A stretch of DNA of 64,000 bases from Thermococcus chitonophagus (GCF_002214605.1 NZ_CP015193.1:1530978-1594977), one strand, 5' to 3'; counted from the first letter of the stretch, positions 1,620 through 11,964 are shown. Notes: a model not told the origin generated them from the letters alone. Made by a program: numbers and translations.

Positions 1620-1791
1620 GGAGCTCTTTTAATTTTTTAATTGTATTCTCAGCTTCTTCAAAACTTTTTGCACCAACAACTACACATTCCACATTTGGTA
1701 GTTTAATTGCAAGTTCCTCTAAACTCAACTTCTCTCCGAGTTTGCCACTGATCACGAGATTTTTAGTCTTATTTGTGAGTAAATACTCCAA
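1609..1791 (-). pseudogene. short ORF, possible gene remnant
   Basis: A 60-codon frame starting at TTG 1791. The peptide looks like real protein (VECVVVGAKSFEEAENTIKK, then a helical Lys-rich tail), but the frame is closed by TAA only three codons before the TTG, and no ribosome binding site is visible. It reads like the C-terminal tail of a larger protein. It overlaps the end of the convergent membrane-protein gene by 11 bases. It could also be a small gene; confidence is low. Confidence 0.25.
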
Positions 1792-2574: not shown

Positions 2575-2757
2575 AGGTTGTCCCCAGTAAAATCCTTGGA
2601 TTTAGAAATTTTTAAAATTTTTGGCAATACTAAGATATTAGCTAAATTAAATCTTAATTATCTTAACAACACTTTTTCATAAATCTTTACATAAATTAAT
2701 TTTGAAGCATTAATTATCACTAACATGAGAATTTTACTATTAGTCGCAAAAGCGGAA

Positions 2758-2797
2758 GATTTATTTATCTAATAGGTATTAATTTTAGTGATGCACT
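2758..2797 (+). promoter_or_regulatory. promoter of the nurA-herA-mre11-rad50 operon
   Basis: A TATA-like TTTATTTA lies at 2760-2767, about 34 bases before the nurA ATG, and is preceded by a purine-rich BRE-like GCGGAAGA. GTGATG just upstream of the ATG can serve as ribosome binding site. No other promoter is seen before rad50 ends, so the four genes are probably one transcript. Confidence 0.5.
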
Positions 2798-4108
2798 ATG
2801 TCCAAGTTCTATGATCTTTTTGCTAAAGAGTTAAGATCAAAGAGAGATAAATGGAAGAAGAGATACCATTCACTTCCAAATACACTTGAAAAATTCCTAA
2901 GAGAAGAATTCAATAAATTCTGGAAACCTGTTAATCTAAAAGATTATGAAAGAAATCCCAAAGAGTTTAATATTCTCGCTGTTGATAGCAGTTATCAGGC
3001 AGAGTCCCTCAAAAATGGCGGGATATTCTATGCAGTTAGAGCCCTTGGGATATCTAAAGACAAAGAATATCGTGATTTAATAGTTGATTTCGACTATGCA
3101 GATGGCCCGGTTCACAATGTAACTCATTTTCTTCAGAGAAAAATGGAATATCTGGAGCTTAAAGTTGCTGCAGATGCAATTTCTGACGGCTTCAATGGGA
3201 CTATCTTAATTGATGGCTCCATCTACGGAAGAATATCCCATCTAATCGAAGAAAGCCCTATGAGCAACGATAGAGGCTTTTTCATCGAGCATTACAAAGA
3301 AGTCATGAGACTCTTTAAACTTGCCAAGGAAAATGAAGTGGTACTTGTCGGAATCAGCAAAGAAAGCAGAAGCCGCTTTTTCAGAGATTTTCTTGTTAAA
3401 AACTTAGTTTCTTTAGACGAAATTAGAGGCGATGTTTCACTTAACGAGGTTTTTCATTTGTTATCTCTGGCATTAGACCAGAAGAGAAAAGCAATTAAAA
3501 TGTTGGACTCTTTAAAGAGGCAGTACGAAAATATTGGATTACTGGATGAAGTCTTGAAAGAACTGCTAACTCCCAGACCAGATTACCAGCTAATTGATAA
3601 ATTTGCCCAACAGCCAGGTTACACGATTCCACTGTTACTGGGGCCTTCTGCGAGATGGCTCCGTGGTATTGAACAAATAGAAAAGGATCCAGAAGGATAC
3701 ATTGAAAGTCATTTTCCAACTCTGTTTTCAGATCCCAATTTTGTCAGTTATGCAAAAGTCATTCTAAAAAATATTCCTGATCTTCCTTCCATAATCTCAA
3801 TGCATGTACTACCGGATGTCAATGATTCTCCTCTCAGAATAGATATTCCGGCTTTCTGTTTGGGAGATGATGTTAAGTTAAAAGAAATTGGATGGCCAGA
3901 ACCATTTACTGGAACTCTTGATCAAATTTTTGAAATCATAGCTACTGGATATGGAGGGTTGGAATTCTACAATATCTGGCTTTGGAAAGTGGATAGAGAG
4001 GTTAAGTTTCATAGGCATGAGTTTGATGAGCTGTATTTCTCTAAGTTTAAAGAAGCTATTGAGGTGGAAATAAATGCCCGAGGTCACAGAAGAGTTAGGT
4101 TCCTTTGA
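2798..4108 (+). CDS. nurA: NurA 5'-3' nuclease
   Basis: 436 residues. NurA is the RNase-H-like nuclease that works inside the HerA hexamer to resect DNA ends with Mre11-Rad50. The conserved first catalytic Asp is in LAVDSS (D63), followed by the family pattern ILIDGSIYGR in the middle and LPDVNDSPLRIDIP towards the end. Length is normal for the family (P. furiosus NurA is about 450 residues). It is the first gene of the operon, and herA starts 35 bases before its stop. In the standard Thermococcales locus, as I recall it, the order is herA-mre11-rad50-nurA, so nurA in first place is unusual and suggests a different lineage of this cluster. Confidence 0.85.
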   Translation: MSKFYDLFAKELRSKRDKWKKRYHSLPNTLEKFLREEFNKFWKPVNLKDYERNPKEFNILAVDSSYQAESLKNGGIFYAVRALGISKDKEYRDLIVDFDYADGPVHNVTHFLQRKMEYLELKVAADAISDGFNGTILIDGSIYGRISHLIEESPMSNDRGFFIEHYKEVMRLFKLAKENEVVLVGISKESRSRFFRDFLVKNLVSLDEIRGDVSLNEVFHLLSLALDQKRKAIKMLDSLKRQYENIGLLDEVLKELLTPRPDYQLIDKFAQQPGYTIPLLLGPSARWLRGIEQIEKDPEGYIESHFPTLFSDPNFVSYAKVILKNIPDLPSIISMHVLPDVNDSPLRIDIPAFCLGDDVKLKEIGWPEPFTGTLDQIFEIIATGYGGLEFYNIWLWKVDREVKFHRHEFDELYFSKFKEAIEVEINARGHRRVRFL

Positions 4109-5678
4109 AAAGATTGGAGTTGTTACTGGGGAAAGCACCCATGTCGAGTTTTATTTTGCAGTTGAAGATGGGAAAATGCCACAAGTATGGGACTATGTGG
4201 TAGTTCCGTCAAATGAATTGATTGATGGAGAGGAAAAAAGAGTCTTGGTGTTAGGGCAGATAACTTCAATAATAGCATATTCTCCAGGATTGACAGAATA
4301 TGTGCCATATTCAGTGGCTGAAAAGCTTAAAGAGGCTGAAATAATAGAGCCAAGAAATCTTGCCAAAGTTAAAATTCTTGGATTTCTTCATAATGGAACT
4401 GTTCTAATGCCTCGGCGAACTATTTATCCCGGAACCTATGTGTATCTGGCTCCTGATGACATTTTAACTGAAGTTTATTCATATCCAGAAGAAGAGGGTC
4501 TTTACATAGGCAACTTGATAACAAGACCAAGCGTTAAAGTCAATCTCACGATTAGGGGATTTAGACGACATTTGGCTATCTTGGCACAAACAGGTGCGGG
4601 AAAAAGTTACACTGCCGGCGTATTGCTTGAAGAACTTTACAAAAAAGGAGCTACTGTCATTGTGTTAGATCCTCATGCAGATTATGTGTTTATCTCAAAA
4701 GATCCAGAAGGAAAGAAAAAAGTGCTAAAGAGGGTTAAGGTATTTAGAACCTCAGAAAGTACTGGAAGGTACACAAAAGAAGAAATTGGACACGTGAAAA
4801 CTTTTGAAATCAAGTTTGCAGACTTATCTCTTGAAGAAATCTTTACAATAGCTGGAATTAATGAAAAATGGACCAACATTATGAAGGCTATTGAAGATGC
4901 CTTGGAGAGATTAAAAAGCAATGAGAATAAAGATGACAGCAAGAATTACACGTTAAATGATTTGATTACAGCATTGCAGACTTCAGATAACAACAACGCC
5001 CTTCGTGCTCTCACGTACATAAAGAGACTCAAAAAACTCAAAGTATTTGGAGACTCAACTACTCCAATAGGAGAGTTCCTGCAGCCCCAAAGCATTGCAG
5101 TTATGGATCTCTCCGGATTAAACGATAATGTTGCGGATTACATAGCTTACAGGATACTCTCGGAGGCGTACAATCAAAGAGAAAATGGCAAATATGAGTA
5201 CCCAATCTTTATTTTAATTGAAGAGGCACATAGATTTATTCCTAAAAATCAGAGTACTCTATCCAAGAGAATCGTTAAGAAAATCGCAGCAGAGGGTAGA
5301 AAATTTGGAGTCTTCTTGATTTTAGTAACCCAGAGACCCCAAAAAATTGATAGCGATGTTCTGAGCCAATGTAACAGCCAGATAATCATGAGAATGACAA
5401 ACCCCGAAGATCAAAATGCTGTTAAAAAGAGCGCTGAACAGGTAAGCGAGGATCTTCTTAGAGACTTGCCAGGACTGAATGTTGGAGAAGCTATTATTGT
5501 TGGGGAAGTTACTAAGATGCCGGTTATGGTCAAGATTAGAAAACGCATGACCAAAGAAGGTGGAGCAGACATAGACATTGTTGGACTACTCAAAAAAGCC
5601 AGGGAAAAAGCAAAAGAGAATATTGATAAAAAGGTTGAGCAGCTTAAGAATGAAATAAAAAGCTTCTTAGAAGTTTAA
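4074..5678 (+). CDS. herA: HerA bipolar DNA helicase/translocase
   Basis: 534 residues. HerA is a hexameric FtsK/HerA-type ATPase that pumps duplex DNA into NurA during end resection. The N-terminal 150 residues form the HAS-barrel region; Walker A is QTGAGKS at 172-178; Walker B is FILIEEAH with the acidic pair at 383-384; an arginine-containing TQRPQKID motif follows. The ATG at 4074 lies inside nurA and has GAGGTGG 7-13 bases upstream, so start and translational coupling are clear. It is somewhat shorter than the P. furiosus protein (about 570). Confidence 0.88.
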   Translation: MPEVTEELGSFEKIGVVTGESTHVEFYFAVEDGKMPQVWDYVVVPSNELIDGEEKRVLVLGQITSIIAYSPGLTEYVPYSVAEKLKEAEIIEPRNLAKVKILGFLHNGTVLMPRRTIYPGTYVYLAPDDILTEVYSYPEEEGLYIGNLITRPSVKVNLTIRGFRRHLAILAQTGAGKSYTAGVLLEELYKKGATVIVLDPHADYVFISKDPEGKKKVLKRVKVFRTSESTGRYTKEEIGHVKTFEIKFADLSLEEIFTIAGINEKWTNIMKAIEDALERLKSNENKDDSKNYTLNDLITALQTSDNNNALRALTYIKRLKKLKVFGDSTTPIGEFLQPQSIAVMDLSGLNDNVADYIAYRILSEAYNQRENGKYEYPIFILIEEAHRFIPKNQSTLSKRIVKKIAAEGRKFGVFLILVTQRPQKIDSDVLSQCNSQIIMRMTNPEDQNAVKKSAEQVSEDLLRDLPGLNVGEAIIVGEVTKMPVMVKIRKRMTKEGGADIDIVGLLKKAREKAKENIDKKVEQLKNEIKSFLEV

Positions 5679-5689
5679 GAGGTGATAGT

Positions 5690-6832
5690 ATGCGTATTGC
5701 CCATATTTCTGACACTCATTTGGGATATCGGCAGTACAACTTAGATGAAAGAGAAAATGACATTTATGATGCTTTCAATGAGGCTGTTGATATCATGATT
5801 GAAGAAAGGGTCGATGTCGTTGTTCATGCTGGAGATTTCTTTGACACTCCGAGACCGCCAATTAAAGCCCTTTATGTGGCAAAGGAAGCAATCAAGCGAT
5901 TGCATGAAAATGGGATTAAGATTTTAACAGTACTTGGTGAACATGATACTCCAAAGAGGAGAGCAATGCCACCACATAAGCTTTTGGATATTCCTATCCT
6001 AGGAATTGGAGAGTTAAGTGTTGTGGAAGTCAACGGAGTTGGATTTTTTGGAATATCAAACATGAAAGGGAAAAGGGTCGACTTACTAAAACAAGAGCTT
6101 TCAAAAGTTGATGCTTTAGCAAATAGATATCCAAAGGCTGTTTTGATTGTCCATCAGGGCATAAAGAAATACTTACCCTTTGAAGGTGCATATGAGCTTG
6201 AGCTTGGGGATTTACCAAAGGAAATAGACTACTATGCGTTTGGACACATTCACAGGAGAACCTTTGAAAAGTTTGGCAGAGGATATTTAGCATATTCTGG
6301 CTCAATTGAAATACTGAGTCGCAGTGAAATAAATGATTGGAAAAGAGATGGAAAGGGCATCTACATTGTTGATCTCGAAGGGGACCTCCCAGAGGTACAT
6401 AAAATTTCCCTCCAGCAAATACGCCCTCAATTTGAACTTTCATATTCCGAGAGTGATGTTATTGAAGAATTAAAGGCTTTTCTCTACAATTTGCTTAAAA
6501 ATCCTCTAGATAAATCTCCCATCTTGAGGATAAATATCAGTAGAGAGGGTATCAGAAAACCAGAAATCCTTGAAAAGGTCCAATATTTGCTAAGAAAAAT
6601 GGTTCCAGAAAAAGTGTTAAGGTATGATGTCCATTTTGTTGGAAGTGATACTCCCATTACCATTACTGCCGAAGAGCTTGGCAAGATTGCAGATTTAGAG
6701 GAACTTTTCATAGAGTACTTTAGGGATGAAACCTTGGGTCATTTAGCATTCGAACTTTACAAATCCCTTCAATATGGAGACGTTGAGGGAGGAATAGAGA
6801 TTTGTAAGGAATACTTGGAGGGAAGGAAATGA
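5690..6832 (+). CDS. mre11: Mre11 nuclease (DNA double-strand break repair)
   Basis: 380 residues. Mn-dependent phosphoesterase that pairs with Rad50. Visible metal-site motifs: SDTHLG (D8, H10), HAGDFFD (D49), GEHD (H85), VHQGI (H155) and FGHIHR (H186, H188). The usual GNHD is GEHD here, so the metal-bridging Asn84 is replaced by Glu84. A shorter C-terminus than P. furiosus Mre11 (about 426 residues) still leaves the capping domain and a Rad50-binding helix. It starts 11 bases after herA with AGAGGTGATAGT upstream, and its stop overlaps the rad50 ATG (ATGA). Identity is certain; whether the Asn-to-Glu change alters exo- or endonuclease activity is open. Confidence 0.88.
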   Translation: MRIAHISDTHLGYRQYNLDERENDIYDAFNEAVDIMIEERVDVVVHAGDFFDTPRPPIKALYVAKEAIKRLHENGIKILTVLGEHDTPKRRAMPPHKLLDIPILGIGELSVVEVNGVGFFGISNMKGKRVDLLKQELSKVDALANRYPKAVLIVHQGIKKYLPFEGAYELELGDLPKEIDYYAFGHIHRRTFEKFGRGYLAYSGSIEILSRSEINDWKRDGKGIYIVDLEGDLPEVHKISLQQIRPQFELSYSESDVIEELKAFLYNLLKNPLDKSPILRINISREGIRKPEILEKVQYLLRKMVPEKVLRYDVHFVGSDTPITITAEELGKIADLEELFIEYFRDETLGHLAFELYKSLQYGDVEGGIEICKEYLEGRK

Positions 6833-9636
6833 TACTAAAGAGGATTACTATGAAGAATTTCCTCTCACATAAGGACACAAAAATCGATTTTCCTCTTGGT
6901 GTTACAGTCTTCATAGGGCCTAATGGCGCTGGAAAAACATCAATAATAGATGCTATTTTTGTAGCACTCTTTAATACACCGCCACGTGGAGATAAGTTTG
7001 ATGATATTATCTACAGGGGAGAAAGAGAAGCGAAAATAGAACTAGAATTTGAAGAAGGCGGAATCCCATACAAAATTGTTTGGAGAAGAAAAAAGGGAAG
7101 GAGTTCCCCAACTTATGAACTTTATCGGCTTGATAGGAACATGCTTATTGCACATGGGGTAAAAGCAGTTAAAAAAGAAGTTGAAAATATTATCGGTATC
7201 GAAAAAGACTCGGCTGTTAACTCAATACTCATAAGACAGGGGGAGATAACGTCTTTACTAGACCAAGCGCCAGCAAAAAGGAAAGAAATCATCGGAAAAC
7301 TGCTTGGGTTAGATCGACTCGAAACTGCTTGGAAAACTATGAATGAGGTAATAAACTATTTCAAAGAGGAACTTAGAGAATATGAGGAATATGAATTCGA
7401 GTATTCTTACAAAACTAAGGAACTCCAACAAAAAACTGAAGAACTTCAAAGGCTATCTCGTGAAATAGAAACTTTAAAGAAACAGATTGTTACTCTCGAA
7501 GAAAAGCTGGAGAATATGCAACAGATTAAAGATAGCCTAGAGAACAAGAAAAAGAGGTATGAAGAATTAACTAAAGATATTGTAATACTTCAGGTAAAGA
7601 TTAAACAAACTAAGGAGAAAGTTGAAAAACTTAAAAGTGAGCTTGCAGAAGCAGAAAAGGCTAAAGAACTAGCTGAAAAGCTTGAAAGTGAAGTTAAGAA
7701 ATTGAGTCTTCTTGAGCAATTAAAGGATATTTTAGCTAAACTTGATTCACTAAATCAACAAAAAGAAGCTTTAGAAAGAGAACTGGATAAAATAAATCGT
7801 CTAGAGCAGGAAATAAGAGATACAGAAGACAAATATCGCCAATATGTGGAGATTGAGGAAAAGATTAAAGAAATAGAAGATGAGGTTTCTATCTTACAGC
7901 CTAAACGTCAAGATAAAGTTCAGATTGAAGAAACCATAAAACGAGTGGAGGATCAGATTAAAGCCCTTAATGAAGAGTTTCAGCAAGTATTAACTGAACT
8001 AAATAAGTACAAGATAGAGCTTTCAGCAATACCAAAGGAATATGAAGCAAAAACTCCAGCAGAAATAGATAGTGAAATTGCTGGCGAAAAGGCCAAGATT
8101 GAACAATTGAAGAAAGAAATAGAACGTCAAATTAGAGAATTAGAAAAAGCTAAAAGTGCTAAAGAAGAAGCAGAAAAACTAAAGCCTTTAGTAGATTTAT
8201 TGGAAAAGCTTAAACAGCTTTGGGAAATTCGTTCTAAAATAGATTCCCTTTCAAAAGATTTAGAGCACTTAAACAGAATTTTACAAGATATCAATGAGAA
8301 AAAAAGCGAACTTGAAAAGAGTAGAGATGGATATGAGGAATACCTCTTGCTGGAAAAGGAAATCGAGAGCCTAGAGAAGCAGAAGTCTGAGCTATTGTCC
8401 TATCGTTCTGAAGTTCAGAAACTACAAGCTATGATAGATGAAAAGAAGAAACAGCTACAAATTCTTCAAGGAGACGCTAACAAATTGGAAGCTGAAATCA
8501 AAATGTACCTCAATGAAATCACTCCAGAAGCTAAACAACAGAAGATTACTGAAATTCAACAGCAAATTAAACAACTAAAAGGTGAATTATTGCAAAAAAG
8601 GAACAAAATTGCTGAATTTAAGAGCAGAATAAAGGAAATAGAGGAGTATCTAAACATTCTTGGAGATGCCAATGAATGTCCTGTATGTCATCAAAAGTTA
8701 ACCCCTGAACACCGCCAAAAAGTTAAGGATGAATTCTCAGCAGAAAAAGCTGAAAAAGAAAAAATGATTCAGCAACTAGAATCTGAAACACTAACATTGG
8801 AAGAAGAAATTGAAAAACTTGAAGACCTTTTGATTACAATTGAGAAGCTTGATGTTAAGAGATACTTGGAGTACCAAAAGAAGATTCAAGAGATATCAAC
8901 AGAACTCAAGAAGCTTGAGGAGAAACTTTCCCAAGCAGAGGAAAAAGTCAATATGCTCAAGCACCTTGAAGAAGTACTTCTGCAAAAACTTCAACGCAAA
9001 AAGGAAGTTGAACCTGATTATTGGGGTTATCTAAGTGCAGAAGAAGAACTAAAATCACTGTTGAAGAAGTATCCAGAAGAAAAAATAAAGGAACAATACA
9101 AGGGCATTGAGGAAGAGCTTGCAGAATATCATCAAAAGGAATCAGCACTTATTGAGGCCATAGGACAGTTGCCGGAGAACCTTGAAAGTGAGATTAAAGC
9201 TCTTGAAGAAAAGAAAGAGCAGTTTATTCAGTTAAAGACAAAGGCTCAGCGTATTCCAATTATTGAAGACGATATTTCTAAATTAAAACAAGAAATTCAC
9301 GAAATAGAAACTTGGAAAATTCCAATGTTATTAGCAATTAAGAAGTTACTTTTAGAAAAAGCACTAAGGGAGTTAAATGAAGACATATCTAGGCTTAATG
9401 AGAAACTCAAGTTGATTCTCAAAGATATCGAGCATCTCGAAGAGCTCGAAAGTCAATTGCAAGAACTCAAGAACCAGTTGGAAACTCTAAAAGAGGACTA
9501 TCAACGATACATAGCAGCTTCTAATGCTTTAAAGCAAGAACGTTCAAAGTCACTAGTCTTGGAAGAACTTGAGGAAATTCATAAAAAAATTTTAGATCTC
9601 ACAAAGGAGGAAGAAGCTTTAGTTTCTAATATTTGA
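6829..9636 (+). CDS. rad50: Rad50 ATPase, N-terminal 935 codons up to an in-frame TGA
   Basis: SMC-like ATPase partner of Mre11. Walker A is GPNGAGKTS (30-38), the Q-loop is in ILIRQGEI near residue 140, and the zinc-hook CPVC is at 617-620. The whole reading frame through to 10506 would be 1225 residues, with the hook almost exactly in the middle. Known archaeal Rad50s are about 850-890 residues; the extra length comes from a duplicated coiled-coil segment in each arm. The frame is interrupted by TGA at codon 936, before the signature motif and Walker B. If truncated here the protein lacks half of its ATPase head and cannot work alone. The next frame is in phase and intact, so this is a single gene with one nonsense codon, a sequence error, or a split protein. 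Confidence 0.85.
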   Translation: MILKRITMKNFLSHKDTKIDFPLGVTVFIGPNGAGKTSIIDAIFVALFNTPPRGDKFDDIIYRGEREAKIELEFEEGGIPYKIVWRRKKGRSSPTYELYRLDRNMLIAHGVKAVKKEVENIIGIEKDSAVNSILIRQGEITSLLDQAPAKRKEIIGKLLGLDRLETAWKTMNEVINYFKEELREYEEYEFEYSYKTKELQQKTEELQRLSREIETLKKQIVTLEEKLENMQQIKDSLENKKKRYEELTKDIVILQVKIKQTKEKVEKLKSELAEAEKAKELAEKLESEVKKLSLLEQLKDILAKLDSLNQQKEALERELDKINRLEQEIRDTEDKYRQYVEIEEKIKEIEDEVSILQPKRQDKVQIEETIKRVEDQIKALNEEFQQVLTELNKYKIELSAIPKEYEAKTPAEIDSEIAGEKAKIEQLKKEIERQIRELEKAKSAKEEAEKLKPLVDLLEKLKQLWEIRSKIDSLSKDLEHLNRILQDINEKKSELEKSRDGYEEYLLLEKEIESLEKQKSELLSYRSEVQKLQAMIDEKKKQLQILQGDANKLEAEIKMYLNEITPEAKQQKITEIQQQIKQLKGELLQKRNKIAEFKSRIKEIEEYLNILGDANECPVCHQKLTPEHRQKVKDEFSAEKAEKEKMIQQLESETLTLEEEIEKLEDLLITIEKLDVKRYLEYQKKIQEISTELKKLEEKLSQAEEKVNMLKHLEEVLLQKLQRKKEVEPDYWGYLSAEEELKSLLKKYPEEKIKEQYKGIEEELAEYHQKESALIEAIGQLPENLESEIKALEEKKEQFIQLKTKAQRIPIIEDDISKLKQEIHEIETWKIPMLLAIKKLLLEKALRELNEDISRLNEKLKLILKDIEHLEELESQLQELKNQLETLKEDYQRYIAASNALKQERSKSLVLEELEEIHKKILDLTKEEEALVSNI
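7648..8136 (+). repeat. Rad50 N-arm coiled-coil duplication, copy 1
   Basis: Residues about 274-436 of Rad50. The block beginning EAEKAKELAEKLES...LLEQLKDILAKLDSL and ending in YRQYVEIEEKIKEIEDE aligns with the following block. Anchors: LLEQLK (codon at 7708) matches LLEKLK (8197), offset 489 bases; YRQY (7834) matches YEEY (8332), offset 498 bases. Confidence 0.65.
8137..8630 (+). repeat. Rad50 N-arm coiled-coil duplication, copy 2
   Basis: Residues about 437-600, directly preceding the zinc hook. It begins ELEKAKSAKEEAEKLK and contains LLEKLKQLWEIRSKIDSL and YEEYLLLEKEIESLEKQ, which align with the preceding block at an offset of 163-166 residues. Boundaries are approximate because coiled-coil sequence is low in complexity. 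Confidence 0.65.
8845..9324 (+). repeat. Rad50 C-arm coiled-coil duplication, copy 1
   Basis: Residues about 673-832, directly after the hook. Contains KKLEEKL (8911), PDYWGYLSAEEELKSL (9013) and IGQLPENLESEIKAL (9160). All three recur in the next block at offsets of 480, 480 and 471 bases. Constant spacing of three separate motifs argues for true duplication and not chance coiled-coil similarity. Confidence 0.7.
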
Positions 9637-9795
9637 CAATTGCCCGAGAACATAGAGGGCGAAATTAAACGCTTAAAACAAGTGAAAGAGGCATACATTC
9701 GTGCTACTGAGAAGAGCAAAGACATAGATTCCATAAAAGAGGAATTGAAAAAAGAAGAATTGGAACTTGAATCATTAATGAAAGAACTTGACTCA
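9325..9795 (+). repeat. Rad50 C-arm coiled-coil duplication, copy 2 (carries the stop codon)
   Basis: Residues about 833-989. Contains SRLNEKL (9391), EDYQRYIAASNALK (9493) and, across the stop, I-stop-QLPENIEGEIKRL (9631 on). In copy 1 the aligned codon is GGA (9163-9165); here it is TGA (9634-9636). Confidence 0.7.
9634..9636 (+). other. in-frame TGA nonsense codon in rad50
   Basis: The codon triplets ATT TGA CAA TTG CCC GAG AAC align with ATA GGA CAG TTG CCG GAG AAC in the upstream repeat copy. A single G-to-T change in the first base of a glycine codon explains the stop. Reading frame and protein character are unchanged on both sides. Confidence 0.85.
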
Positions 9796-10506
9796 AAAAA
9801 CAAAGAGCTTAAAGACCTTGCATATTCTCAAGAAGAATTTGAAAAGATACAGAAAGAAGTTCAAAATCTTTCAGCAGAGGTTAGTAGATTAAAGGGTACA
9901 TTATCTGAGAAAATTCAACAAAAGGAGAAACTTGAAACGGAGATTAAAGAATTACTGCATGATATTACTGAGTTGGAGAAACAGCTTCAAAAAATTGAAA
10001 AAATCCGGAAGTTCATAGCGGATTTAGAGCGTATTAGGGGTGCATACCACAAAGATGGGGTTCAAAAGCTCCTCCGCAAAAAGATTGCTCCAGTAATATC
10101 TGAATTAGCCACAAATTACATTGAGAGTTTCAATATGGACATAACAGACATTTACCTTTCTGAGGACTTTGATATTTCCGTTACTAAAAACTCTGTAGAT
10201 GTTCCAATATCTCTCCTTAGTGGTGGTGAGAAAGTTGCTGTGGCTCTTTCGTTGAGATTAGCGATTGCGAGGGTTCTCGCAAGAAGGCTTTCAGTGGTAA
10301 TAATGGATGAACCAACAACGCATTTAGATGAAGAAAGAAGGAGAGATTTAGTAGAAATTCTCGGAAAGTTCTTTAAAGCTGAGAATACAGTGCCACAAAT
10401 AATTATTGTAACCCACCATAGAGAGCTTGAAGACGTGGCAGATACAGTGTACCTTGTCCAAAAGGTTGACGGAATTTCAAAAGTTATTGAAAGTTCTTCT
10501 TTGTAA
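9640..10506 (+). CDS. rad50: Rad50, C-terminal part after the TGA (signature motif and Walker B)
   Basis: In phase with the upstream Rad50 frame. As an independent ORF it would start at TTG 9640 and give 288 residues: a C-arm coiled coil, then the ATPase head with signature LLSGGEK (residues 1129-1135 of the joined protein), Walker B VVIMDEPTTHLD (D1160) and the H-loop VTHHRELEDVADTVYLV. All catalytic motifs are intact, so any decay is very recent. No ribosome binding site precedes TTG 9640 within 20 bases (the nearest, AAGGAGG at 9603, is too far), so separate translation is unlikely unless it restarts after termination. Confidence 0.8.
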   Translation: MPENIEGEIKRLKQVKEAYIRATEKSKDIDSIKEELKKEELELESLMKELDSKNKELKDLAYSQEEFEKIQKEVQNLSAEVSRLKGTLSEKIQQKEKLETEIKELLHDITELEKQLQKIEKIRKFIADLERIRGAYHKDGVQKLLRKKIAPVISELATNYIESFNMDITDIYLSEDFDISVTKNSVDVPISLLSGGEKVAVALSLRLAIARVLARRLSVVIMDEPTTHLDEERRRDLVEILGKFFKAENTVPQIIIVTHHRELEDVADTVYLVQKVDGISKVIESSSL

Positions 10507-10747
10507 TTTCTAAATTTTTAGGTTTCGCTCTGGATTTCAACATGAATTTTGTTCCGAGTCGTTAACAGCATAACTAAATTTTAAGTTAAATAAACTCCAG
10601 TTCCTTATCTAATGGGACAAATATGATTTGCCTCATCTTTAACTGTTACAGTCAAGTTGTGTTATGTAATTTTCTGCATGGTGATGAGTTTGTATTATTA
10701 GAAAATATTTTAAACATTAAAATTACATACTTTTTTGGTGATCTAAC

Positions 10748-11236
10748 ATGAAAAAAGATGAGACTAAGGTAATTAGACTAACAGAAGACGCATACAATGC
10801 TCTTAGTAGACTACGAAAGAAGATTGTCGAACATGGCCAGAGAAGTTACTCCTACTCGGACATAGTGCTTACTGCAACTCTTCTTCTTGACAATGCAGTT
10901 GAACGTAATATTGCAAATGTCATGGACATAGTAACCATAGCAAAAGGGTTACGTCTTCAGAAATTAAGGGGAGAACTCCCAAAGAGCACCGATGTTTCTG
11001 AAGAGCTTAAAAAACACTTTCCTAACAGTGTTGATCAATTCACAACCCCAGTCAGCAAAATCATCTCATCAATAATTAAGCAACTCATTGAAAATGGTTA
11101 TCCAGATGCTGCCAGTTATGTGTTATTTTTACACAAGGATAAGCTTTCACCAGAAGAATTTGTTCGACTGAGTGTCAAAACACTTGAAGCGCAAGTGCAA
11201 ATGAAGATACGTGAAAAAGAACAATCCAGAGAGTAA
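10748..11236 (+). CDS. ribbon-helix-helix-like protein of unknown function, 162 aa
   Basis: The N-terminus (KVIRLTEDAYNALSRLRKKI, then YSYSDIV) has the pattern of a ribbon-helix-helix DNA-binding domain as found in archaeal VapB-type antitoxins and DUF217-like proteins. The remaining 110 residues are helical and unrecognised. It starts at ATG 10748 with TTGGTGATCTAAC upstream and a TATA-like AAATATTTTAAA near 10702. It lies 241 bases after rad50 and shares its AT-rich composition, so it may regulate or accompany the accessory cluster. No toxin gene is adjacent, and the next gene has different character. Confidence 0.55.
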   Translation: MKKDETKVIRLTEDAYNALSRLRKKIVEHGQRSYSYSDIVLTATLLLDNAVERNIANVMDIVTIAKGLRLQKLRGELPKSTDVSEELKKHFPNSVDQFTTPVSKIISSIIKQLIENGYPDAASYVLFLHKDKLSPEEFVRLSVKTLEAQVQMKIREKEQSRE

Positions 11237-11355: not shown

Positions 11356-11418
11356 TGTCTCCGAGGAAAACGGTCTGTTTGGGAAATAAAGCCTAAAGAG
11401 GGGAGTTTAATGCGAGTA

Positions 11419-11484
11419 ACCGATGATGAGTGTCATCCCTGCTGATTCGGGGTCGATGATGAGGTAAAGTCCCCACCTGAGGTG
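11419..11484 (+). ncRNA. C/D-box sRNA
   Basis: All four boxes are present with normal spacing: C ATGATGA 11423-11429, D' CTGA 11442-11445, C' ATGATGA 11456-11462, D CTGA 11477-11480. Guides are GTGTCATCCCTG before D' and GGTAAAGTCCCCAC before D. Archaeal C/D sRNAs direct 2'-O-methylation of rRNA or tRNA at the base paired five positions before the box. Targets were not worked out. The D box is directly followed by the GAGGTG ribosome binding site of the next gene. Confidence 0.85.
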
Positions 11485-11490
11485 TTCCCA

Positions 11491-11964
11491 ATGATATTTG
11501 GAATATTCAGGAAAAAGAAGAAAGTTTATGGACCTCCCGTATATCTAAGCGAGCCTACGATTTTGTACCACACGAGAACTGAGAAGGTTATACTTGAAAT
11601 TATAGAGGAGAAACTTGGCTCAACCAACGTCATTCTGCCCTCAGATTATGGTATAAAAGATGTAAGCGACAAGATTAGGGATGTAGAGTACGTAGTTGCG
11701 GTTGCCATATATGGGAAGTTCTCTTCCTTAGTATGCAAAGAAGTTGAAAAAGCGAAAAGGTTCAACAAGAAAATATACACCCTAGATATCGCAAGCAAAA
11801 AGGAGGATTCCATAACCTACTACTTCGAAGAGGGTGTTCCGGAACATATAGAATGGCTTGATCCAGAGGAAACGAAAAAGTTCTTTGACGAGTTCCTGGG
11901 GGAGGATTTCATGGGAATAGCATTTAGGGGGTTCTTCTTAGGATACAGAAAAAATAAATGGTAG
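11491..11964 (+). CDS. hypothetical protein, about 157 aa
   Basis: ATG 11491 has GAGGTG six bases upstream and is preferred over an in-frame GTG at 11482. The product is soluble, with a basic start (FRKKKKVYGPP) and an alpha/beta pattern (EYVVAVAIYGKF, KKIYTLDIAS), resembling a nucleotide-binding or TIR-like Rossmann fold only in general appearance. No known family recognised. It is convergent with the NfnL gene, which ends directly after it. Confidence 0.6.
   Translation: MIFGIFRKKKKVYGPPVYLSEPTILYHTRTEKVILEIIEEKLGSTNVILPSDYGIKDVSDKIRDVEYVVAVAIYGKFSSLVCKEVEKAKRFNKKIYTLDIASKKEDSITYYFEEGVPEHIEWLDPEETKKFFDEFLGEDFMGIAFRGFFLGYRKNKW

Follow-up and report, generated by a model that had tools for sequence, protein, structure and literature searches.

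A second NurA-HerA-Mre11-Rad50 cluster in a low-GC island

The window, meaning the whole analysed stretch of 64,000 nucleotides from Thermococcus chitonophagus, carries near its start a row of genes for NurA-like, HerA-like, Mre11-like and Rad50-like proteins, the last of which is divided between two reading frames. The closest relative of this row has been found in genome G086 (locus L051). The genes are arranged as follows:

2798-4108, + strand: NurA-like nuclease gene, 436 aa (Pfam NurA E=2e-12; 97% identical protein in G086)
4074-5678, + strand: HerA-like helicase gene, 534 aa (Pfam DUF87/HerA_C; residues 1-503 97% identical to G086)
5690-6832, + strand: Mre11-like nuclease gene, 380 aa (Pfam Metallophos; 96% identical to G086)
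6829-9636, + strand: Rad50 5' ORF, 935 aa, with the N-terminal head, the N-arm, the zinc hook and most of the C-arm (Pfam AAA_23, Rad50_zn_hook)
9640-10506, + strand: Rad50 3' ORF, ~289 aa from a TTG, with the remaining C-arm and the C-terminal head, including LSGGEK and the Walker B motif MDEP (Pfam SMC_N, SbcC_Walker_B)

The assignment to Rad50 follows from the linked mre11 gene (5690-6832), which overlaps the rad50 start by four bases, from the N-terminal head with its Walker A motif GPNGAGKT at residues 30-37 (AAA_23 E=2e-10), from a CxxC zinc hook in the middle of the coil (CPVC, residues 617-620), and from the C-terminal head, which lies in the separate ORF and holds LSGGEKVAV and VIMDEPTTHLDEE (SbcC_Walker_B E=4e-6). 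The continuous chain of a Rad50/SbcC protein, in contrast, is interrupted by the TGA at 9634-9636. The NCBIfam Rad50 equivalog is not reached (best score 249.8, cut-off 1000), and as the intact G086 relative also fails (436 vs 847), a divergent Rad50 subfamily is indicated. Scores from the same source lean to the Sulfolobus-type Mre11 and NurA and to the Thermoplasma/Sulfolobus-type Rad50 over the Thermococcales types, all of them below the curated cut-offs. This second cluster is rare, being present in 4 of the 115 genomes of the phylum (the window genome, G086, G046 and G078). The same cell encodes a canonical Rad50 of 881 aa in a HerA-Mre11-Rad50-NurA operon elsewhere (L054), and canonical Rad50s of 20 genomes have 878-929 aa with near-constant arms; the window Rad50 is not the main Rad50 of the cell.

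The cluster sits in a low-GC stretch of ~35 kb (34-42% vs 43-49% outside), the downstream border of which has been located near 11418, where similarity to the neighbouring species starts. Among its neighbours in this island are a DrmD/HmaA-like helicase, an HmaC/DUF499-like ATPase and a DUF1156 methylase, which resemble parts of Hma, DISARM and BREX, whereas a search of the cluster itself with defence models returned only general HerA, SMC and ABC matches. A defence role of the cluster is suggested only by its neighbourhood. These defence-like genes, together with proteins that appear McrB- and McrC-like by eye, occupy positions 2-1153 and a locus of the same genome just upstream of the window (L097). 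Positions 1639-1770 (- strand) hold the remnant of a second TATA-binding-protein-like (TBP-like) gene, reduced to the C-terminal half and carrying a 26-residue internal deletion; its counterpart in G086 (L051:1282-1806, 174 aa) is open. Two genes have been noted near the G086 cluster, one tyrosine-integrase-like (L051:10257-11513) and one resembling prokaryotic Argonaute (L051:11749-14253; PADLOC PprPIWI/pAgo E about 1e-28). Downstream of rad50, the ORFs 10748-11236 and 11482-11964 are without a Pfam match; the latter (51% over 112 aa, tblastx) and, weakly, the former have counterparts in the same order beside the G078 cluster.

Repeats and an in-frame stop in the coiled-coil arms

In the first-pass annotation, a single Rad50 of 1225 residues had been described. 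No such ORF exists; the count results from reading through the TGA at 9634-9636, which breaks the frame into 935 and ~289 aa, and the case is a caution that a long ORF traced by eye may cross a stop. The features of the coil are:

7540-8037, + strand: first repeat copy of the N-arm (N1), residues 238-403 (47.5 bits with the N-arm profile of the relatives; null maximum, 6.1)
8038-8535, + strand: N-arm repeat copy N2, residues 404-569 (8.3 bits against the same profile, null maximum 7.6)
8677-8688, + strand: zinc hook CPVC, residues 617-620 (Pfam Rad50_zn_hook E=1e-7)
8875-9354, + strand: C-arm repeat copy C1, residues 683-842 (diagonal, local alignment, profile)
9355-9777, + strand: C-arm repeat copy C2, residues 843-983, holding the in-frame stop (diagonal, local alignment, profile)
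9634-9636, + strand: in-frame TGA, residue 936 (frame reading; alignment of the C-arm copies)

The duplications that had been proposed for both arms are borne out by self-alignment. Before the hook, residues 238-399 align gaplessly with 404-565 (51/162 identical, 31%), and after the hook, residues 683-826 align with 843-983 (40/144 identical, 28%). Both arms exceed 2000 of 2000 heptad-block shuffles of the coiled coil, with local alignment scores of 211 in the N-arm (shuffle maximum 166) and 187 in the C-arm (maximum 171). The best ungapped diagonal has been found at an offset of 166 in the N-arm (score 230; maximum of 200 heptad-block shuffles, 121) and at an offset of 157 in the C-arm, where an adjacent piece has an offset of 160 (score 144; maximum of 200 shuffles, 95); the previously listed offsets of 480, 480 and 471 bases between C-arm anchors are correct and correspond to 160, 160 and 157 aa. 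The hook likewise is central, as had been stated, between arms of 455 and 452 residues. A nearly equal extra length of the two arms, also claimed before, holds only roughly, as the gain against the nearest short relatives, whose own arms are unequal (293-294/260 residues), is ~161 residues for the N-arm but ~192 for the C-arm. On the DNA level, no clear repeat of the block length has been found, only short chance repeats, and the arm repeats are old and diverged.

Comparison with the short Rad50s supports the same picture, as the relatives' profile stretch is used twice in each arm of the window protein. An N-arm profile of three short relatives matches the window N-arm at profile positions 1-229 and then 23-292, and the corresponding C-arm profile matches with overlap at 91-247 and then 32-259, as expected from one extra tandem block per arm. 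N1 is clearly the copy nearest to the relatives and N2 is marginal; in the C-arm, C1 (18.7 bits, null maximum 12.8) scores above C2 (10.2 bits, null maximum 11.1), a weak contrast. The AlphaFold model of the coil (pLDDT 66, pTM 0.29) is of too low confidence for reading arm pairing or register.

Regarding the stop, the 3' ORF continues in the same frame, reopens immediately past the TGA and runs to 10506. The matching codon in C1 is GGA (9163-9165; ..AIGQLPEN.. vs ..SNI*QLPEN..), so that the TGA is most simply explained by one G-to-T substitution in a glycine codon. Insertion of selenocysteine has been considered and rejected, as the genome holds no tRNA-Sec above the Rfam cut-off, and the TGA is therefore best read as a stop. 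It could also be a sequencing error or strain-specific. The stop context at 9634-9642 (TGA CAA TTG) resembles STOP CAR YYA, a known leaky-stop context; this likeness is probably a coincidence, with CA(A/G) TTG inherited from the repeat. Beyond the stop, the C-terminal head is as constrained as the N-terminal head and Mre11 (dN/dS 0.129 each in one estimate; dN 0.024, dS 0.25 and dN/dS 0.09 for residues 1075-1223 in a second estimate), and it shows no excess of window-specific changes. Accordingly, the stop is recent, is an error, or is tolerated because the two pieces reassemble.

Mosaic borders and the origin of the long coil

The similarity to the closest relative is sharply divided along the rad50 gene and, at a second junction, between HerA and Mre11:

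5584-5689, + strand: second junction, with a HerA C-terminal tail unlike the relatives' and the accessory gene absent (DNA match to L051 ends at 5583 and resumes at 5690)
6829-7314, + strand: Rad50 N-terminal ATPase head, residues 1-162, conserved (92-97% DNA identity to L051 in 60-base steps; dN 0.013, dS 0.22)
7315-10008, + strand: whole coiled coil and hook, the putatively replaced segment (similarity to the closest relative's DNA lost from 7362 on; head/coil identity 0.95/0.37)
10009-10506, + strand: Rad50 C-terminal ATPase head, conserved (88.9% DNA identity to L051 over 10009-10635)

BLASTN comparison with G086 (L051) gives DNA identities of 94.7% for 2712-5583, 94.6% for 5690-7361 and 88.9% for 10009-10635, whereas 7362-10008 cannot be aligned. 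The similarity changes abruptly at residues ~163 and ~1061, where the two head halves end and the coil adjoins them. Synonymous divergence amounts to 0.1-0.3 through codon 150 and is saturated (1.65) in codons 151-180, and selection at the protein level thus cannot explain the change of the coil. While head and coil of the window protein are 0.95 and 0.37 identical to those of G086, canonical control pairs with heads of 0.94-0.95 retain coils of 0.76-0.80, and other pairs of second-cluster Rad50s show 0.71-0.79 in the head and 0.63-0.66 in the coil. Between G086 and G078, the DNA match runs without a break across both the coil and the accessory gene (7.1 kb at 69.7%), which identifies the window copy as the altered one.

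Across the 115 genomes searched, matches of the window coil below 1e-10 were limited to Rad50s of the second-cluster subfamily (28-32% identity). A close coil that could mark the donor has been found neither in these genomes nor in plasmids, phages and viral contigs; a peptide-pattern scan of genome contigs returned only distant ATPases, the chosen patterns being too general. With no donor found, it is the borders from which the transfer is deduced, and the case for a coil swap concerns one event in one genome. The repeat copies are 28-31% alike and ~23-30% identical to the short relatives. They are as far apart from each other as from these relatives, to one of which the heads are 95% identical, and the duplication therefore predates the arrival of the coil.

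At the second junction, the window lacks an accessory gene of 210-225 aa, which lies between HerA and Mre11 and has been detected in G086 and G078 only. The accessory proteins (L051:5318-5995; L053:8988-9617) are 45% identical to each other and have a sub-threshold similarity to the Pfam AF0941-like family; the predicted structure (pLDDT 64) gave no significant fold match. A simple deletion fusing HerA to Mre11 has been rejected, as no part of the accessory gene in the relative could be aligned with the HerA tail as its source (best local score, 21). On the relation between accessory loss and coil type, only three genomes are informative, two with the accessory gene and one without; in G046, the contig begins within mre11 and the assembly lacks the herA of the second cluster.

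Taken together, we consider it probable (roughly three in four) that a recombinational swap brought an anciently duplicated, longer pair of arms from an unsampled donor into the island Rad50, and that the stop codon arose thereafter. On this reading, an archaeon of the Thermococcales type would have gained a second NurA-HerA-Mre11-Rad50 cluster for end processing by horizontal transfer, and the gene would be part of this cluster in its defence-rich island. Homologous recombination, with the conserved heads as anchors, may have exchanged the whole coil and hook for those of a distant allele of the same subfamily, in which one block per arm would already have been duplicated in tandem long before. 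The arms would thereby have gone from ~294 and ~260 residues (roughly 40 nm) to ~455 and ~452 (roughly 65 nm), the lengths in nm being estimates at 0.15 nm per residue. A later point mutation, most likely GGA to TGA, would have split the gene in the C-arm.

Other origins of the long coil have been weighed against this history. Very fast coil evolution under positive selection and without exchange might be considered, as coils outpace heads in the control pairs as well, but the step of synonymous sites from 0.1-0.3 to saturation within ~15 codons and the 76-80% coil identity kept by controls of equal head identity leave it hardly credible, and we have rejected it. A single nested event, in which one Rad50 received the distal hairpin of another at its tip and both arms were lengthened in register, would simply explain the matched arm lengths and is in line with copies that have diverged to a similar extent in the N-arm (31% identity) and the C-arm (28%). 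It predicts, however, that N1 and C2, or N2 and C1, jointly resemble the relatives, whereas N1 (47.5 bits) and C1 (18.7) score best and N2 (8.3) and C2 (10.2) least; the C-arm contrast is too weak to be decisive, and we regard such an event as unlikely. The first-pass annotation had favoured two matched duplications that became fixed here because selection favoured tethering of DNA ends over a longer distance. Repeats in both arms, the central hook with arms of 455 and 452 residues, and the discrete lengths kept by natural SMC arms (PMC5344682) speak for such lengthening. Selection for longer reach in this lineage is nevertheless not supported, as the coil came as one replaced segment with sharp recombination borders, the duplication is older than its arrival (copies 28-31% alike, yet heads 95% identical to a short relative, hence not recent here), the ORF is broken, and the gene is a second copy beside an ordinary Rad50. 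We consider fixation by selection here quite improbable; possibly, selection for length acted in the unseen donor.

The present state of the gene can be read in two further ways. The island copy may be dead or dying, its arm length being without present function. The in-frame TGA, the absence of the accessory gene and the intact canonical cluster of the same cell point in this direction, and decay is also supported by the broken TBP-like gene of the same island, truncated and internally deleted here and intact in G086. The C-terminal head beyond the stop, on the other hand, is as constrained as the N-terminal head and Mre11, without an excess of window-specific changes, and the NurA, HerA and Mre11 frames are open, so that decay, while a serious candidate, falls short of an even chance. 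Doubtful by comparison is a split but working Rad50, in which ribosomes restart at the TTG 3 bases past the TGA and chains of 935 and 289 aa assemble. The TTG (9640) directly follows the stop in the same frame, the constraint on the C-terminal head is kept, and Rad50 N-lobe structures exist as separate chains of 149-195 residues (1f2t, 1ii8); as both chain ends contribute to the head, pairing of the arms could in principle bring the two pieces together again. On the other side, TTG is a poor start codon, the sole good ribosome-binding-like stretch (AAGGAGG, 9604-9610) lies ~30 bases upstream and is too far away to serve it, and none of the relatives is split.

Exchangeable arms and known systems

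If the complex is still made, it would grip and trim DNA ends by nearly unchanged heads and Mre11 with a longer rod between hook and head. Within such a complex, the Mre11 nuclease and the Rad50 ATPase heads would be placed at the DNA end, the hook-joined arms would bridge, and HerA-NurA would resect. Tethering and trimming of ends are roles established for these families (e.g. PMC2288612, PMC5715905).

The canonical Thermococcales HerA-Mre11-Rad50-NurA operon shares with the window cluster the four protein families, the zinc hook and the two-part ATPase head. It differs in gene order, which is NurA-HerA-Mre11-Rad50 in the window, and the window heads are only ~33% identical to those of the cell's own canonical Rad50. 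Much closer are the short second-cluster Rad50s of G086 (872 aa), G046 (875 aa) and G078 (884 aa), which belong to the same subfamily (heads 72-95% identical) and, in G086 and G078, to the same operon. These proteins have a single block per arm, arms of 293-294/260 residues and unbroken ORFs, in contrast to the doubled blocks and the split gene of the window.

The locus shows that recombination can replace a Rad50 coil as a unit, as nearly unchanged heads are joined to a different, longer arm pair with its strands still length-matched (455/452). More speculatively, Rad50 coil and hook, as well as HerA tail and accessory gene, might be exchangeable modules between conserved motor and nuclease cores in island clusters, so that arm length and accessory partner would vary together by recombination, like restriction specificity subunits. 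In type I restriction specificity subunits, a variable module is swapped between conserved flanks by recombination. The likeness in cassette exchange is by analogy only; the window gives no evidence that the module switches repeatedly or that a population holds several alleles.

Such arms may serve as passive spacers or as tuned levers, and nature appears to have set up an experiment on this question at the locus: a coil ~1.6 times longer and different almost throughout is combined with the same heads and an Mre11 that is nearly unchanged, which bears on the independence of heads and arms. Artificial changes of SMC arm length are tolerated only in certain length ranges (PMC5344682), and truncations of Rad50 are harmful (PMC5082667). 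With Bacillus subtilis Smc (PMC5344682) and the eukaryotic Rad50 of 1312 aa (PMC5082667), the window protein shares antiparallel coiled-coil arms that need length-matched strands, and 1225-1312 aa lies inside the known range of SMC/Rad50 proteins with tuned arms. Those proteins, however, are encoded by single unbroken genes and have had their length conserved by descent, whereas in the window the arm pair appears to have been exchanged as a unit.
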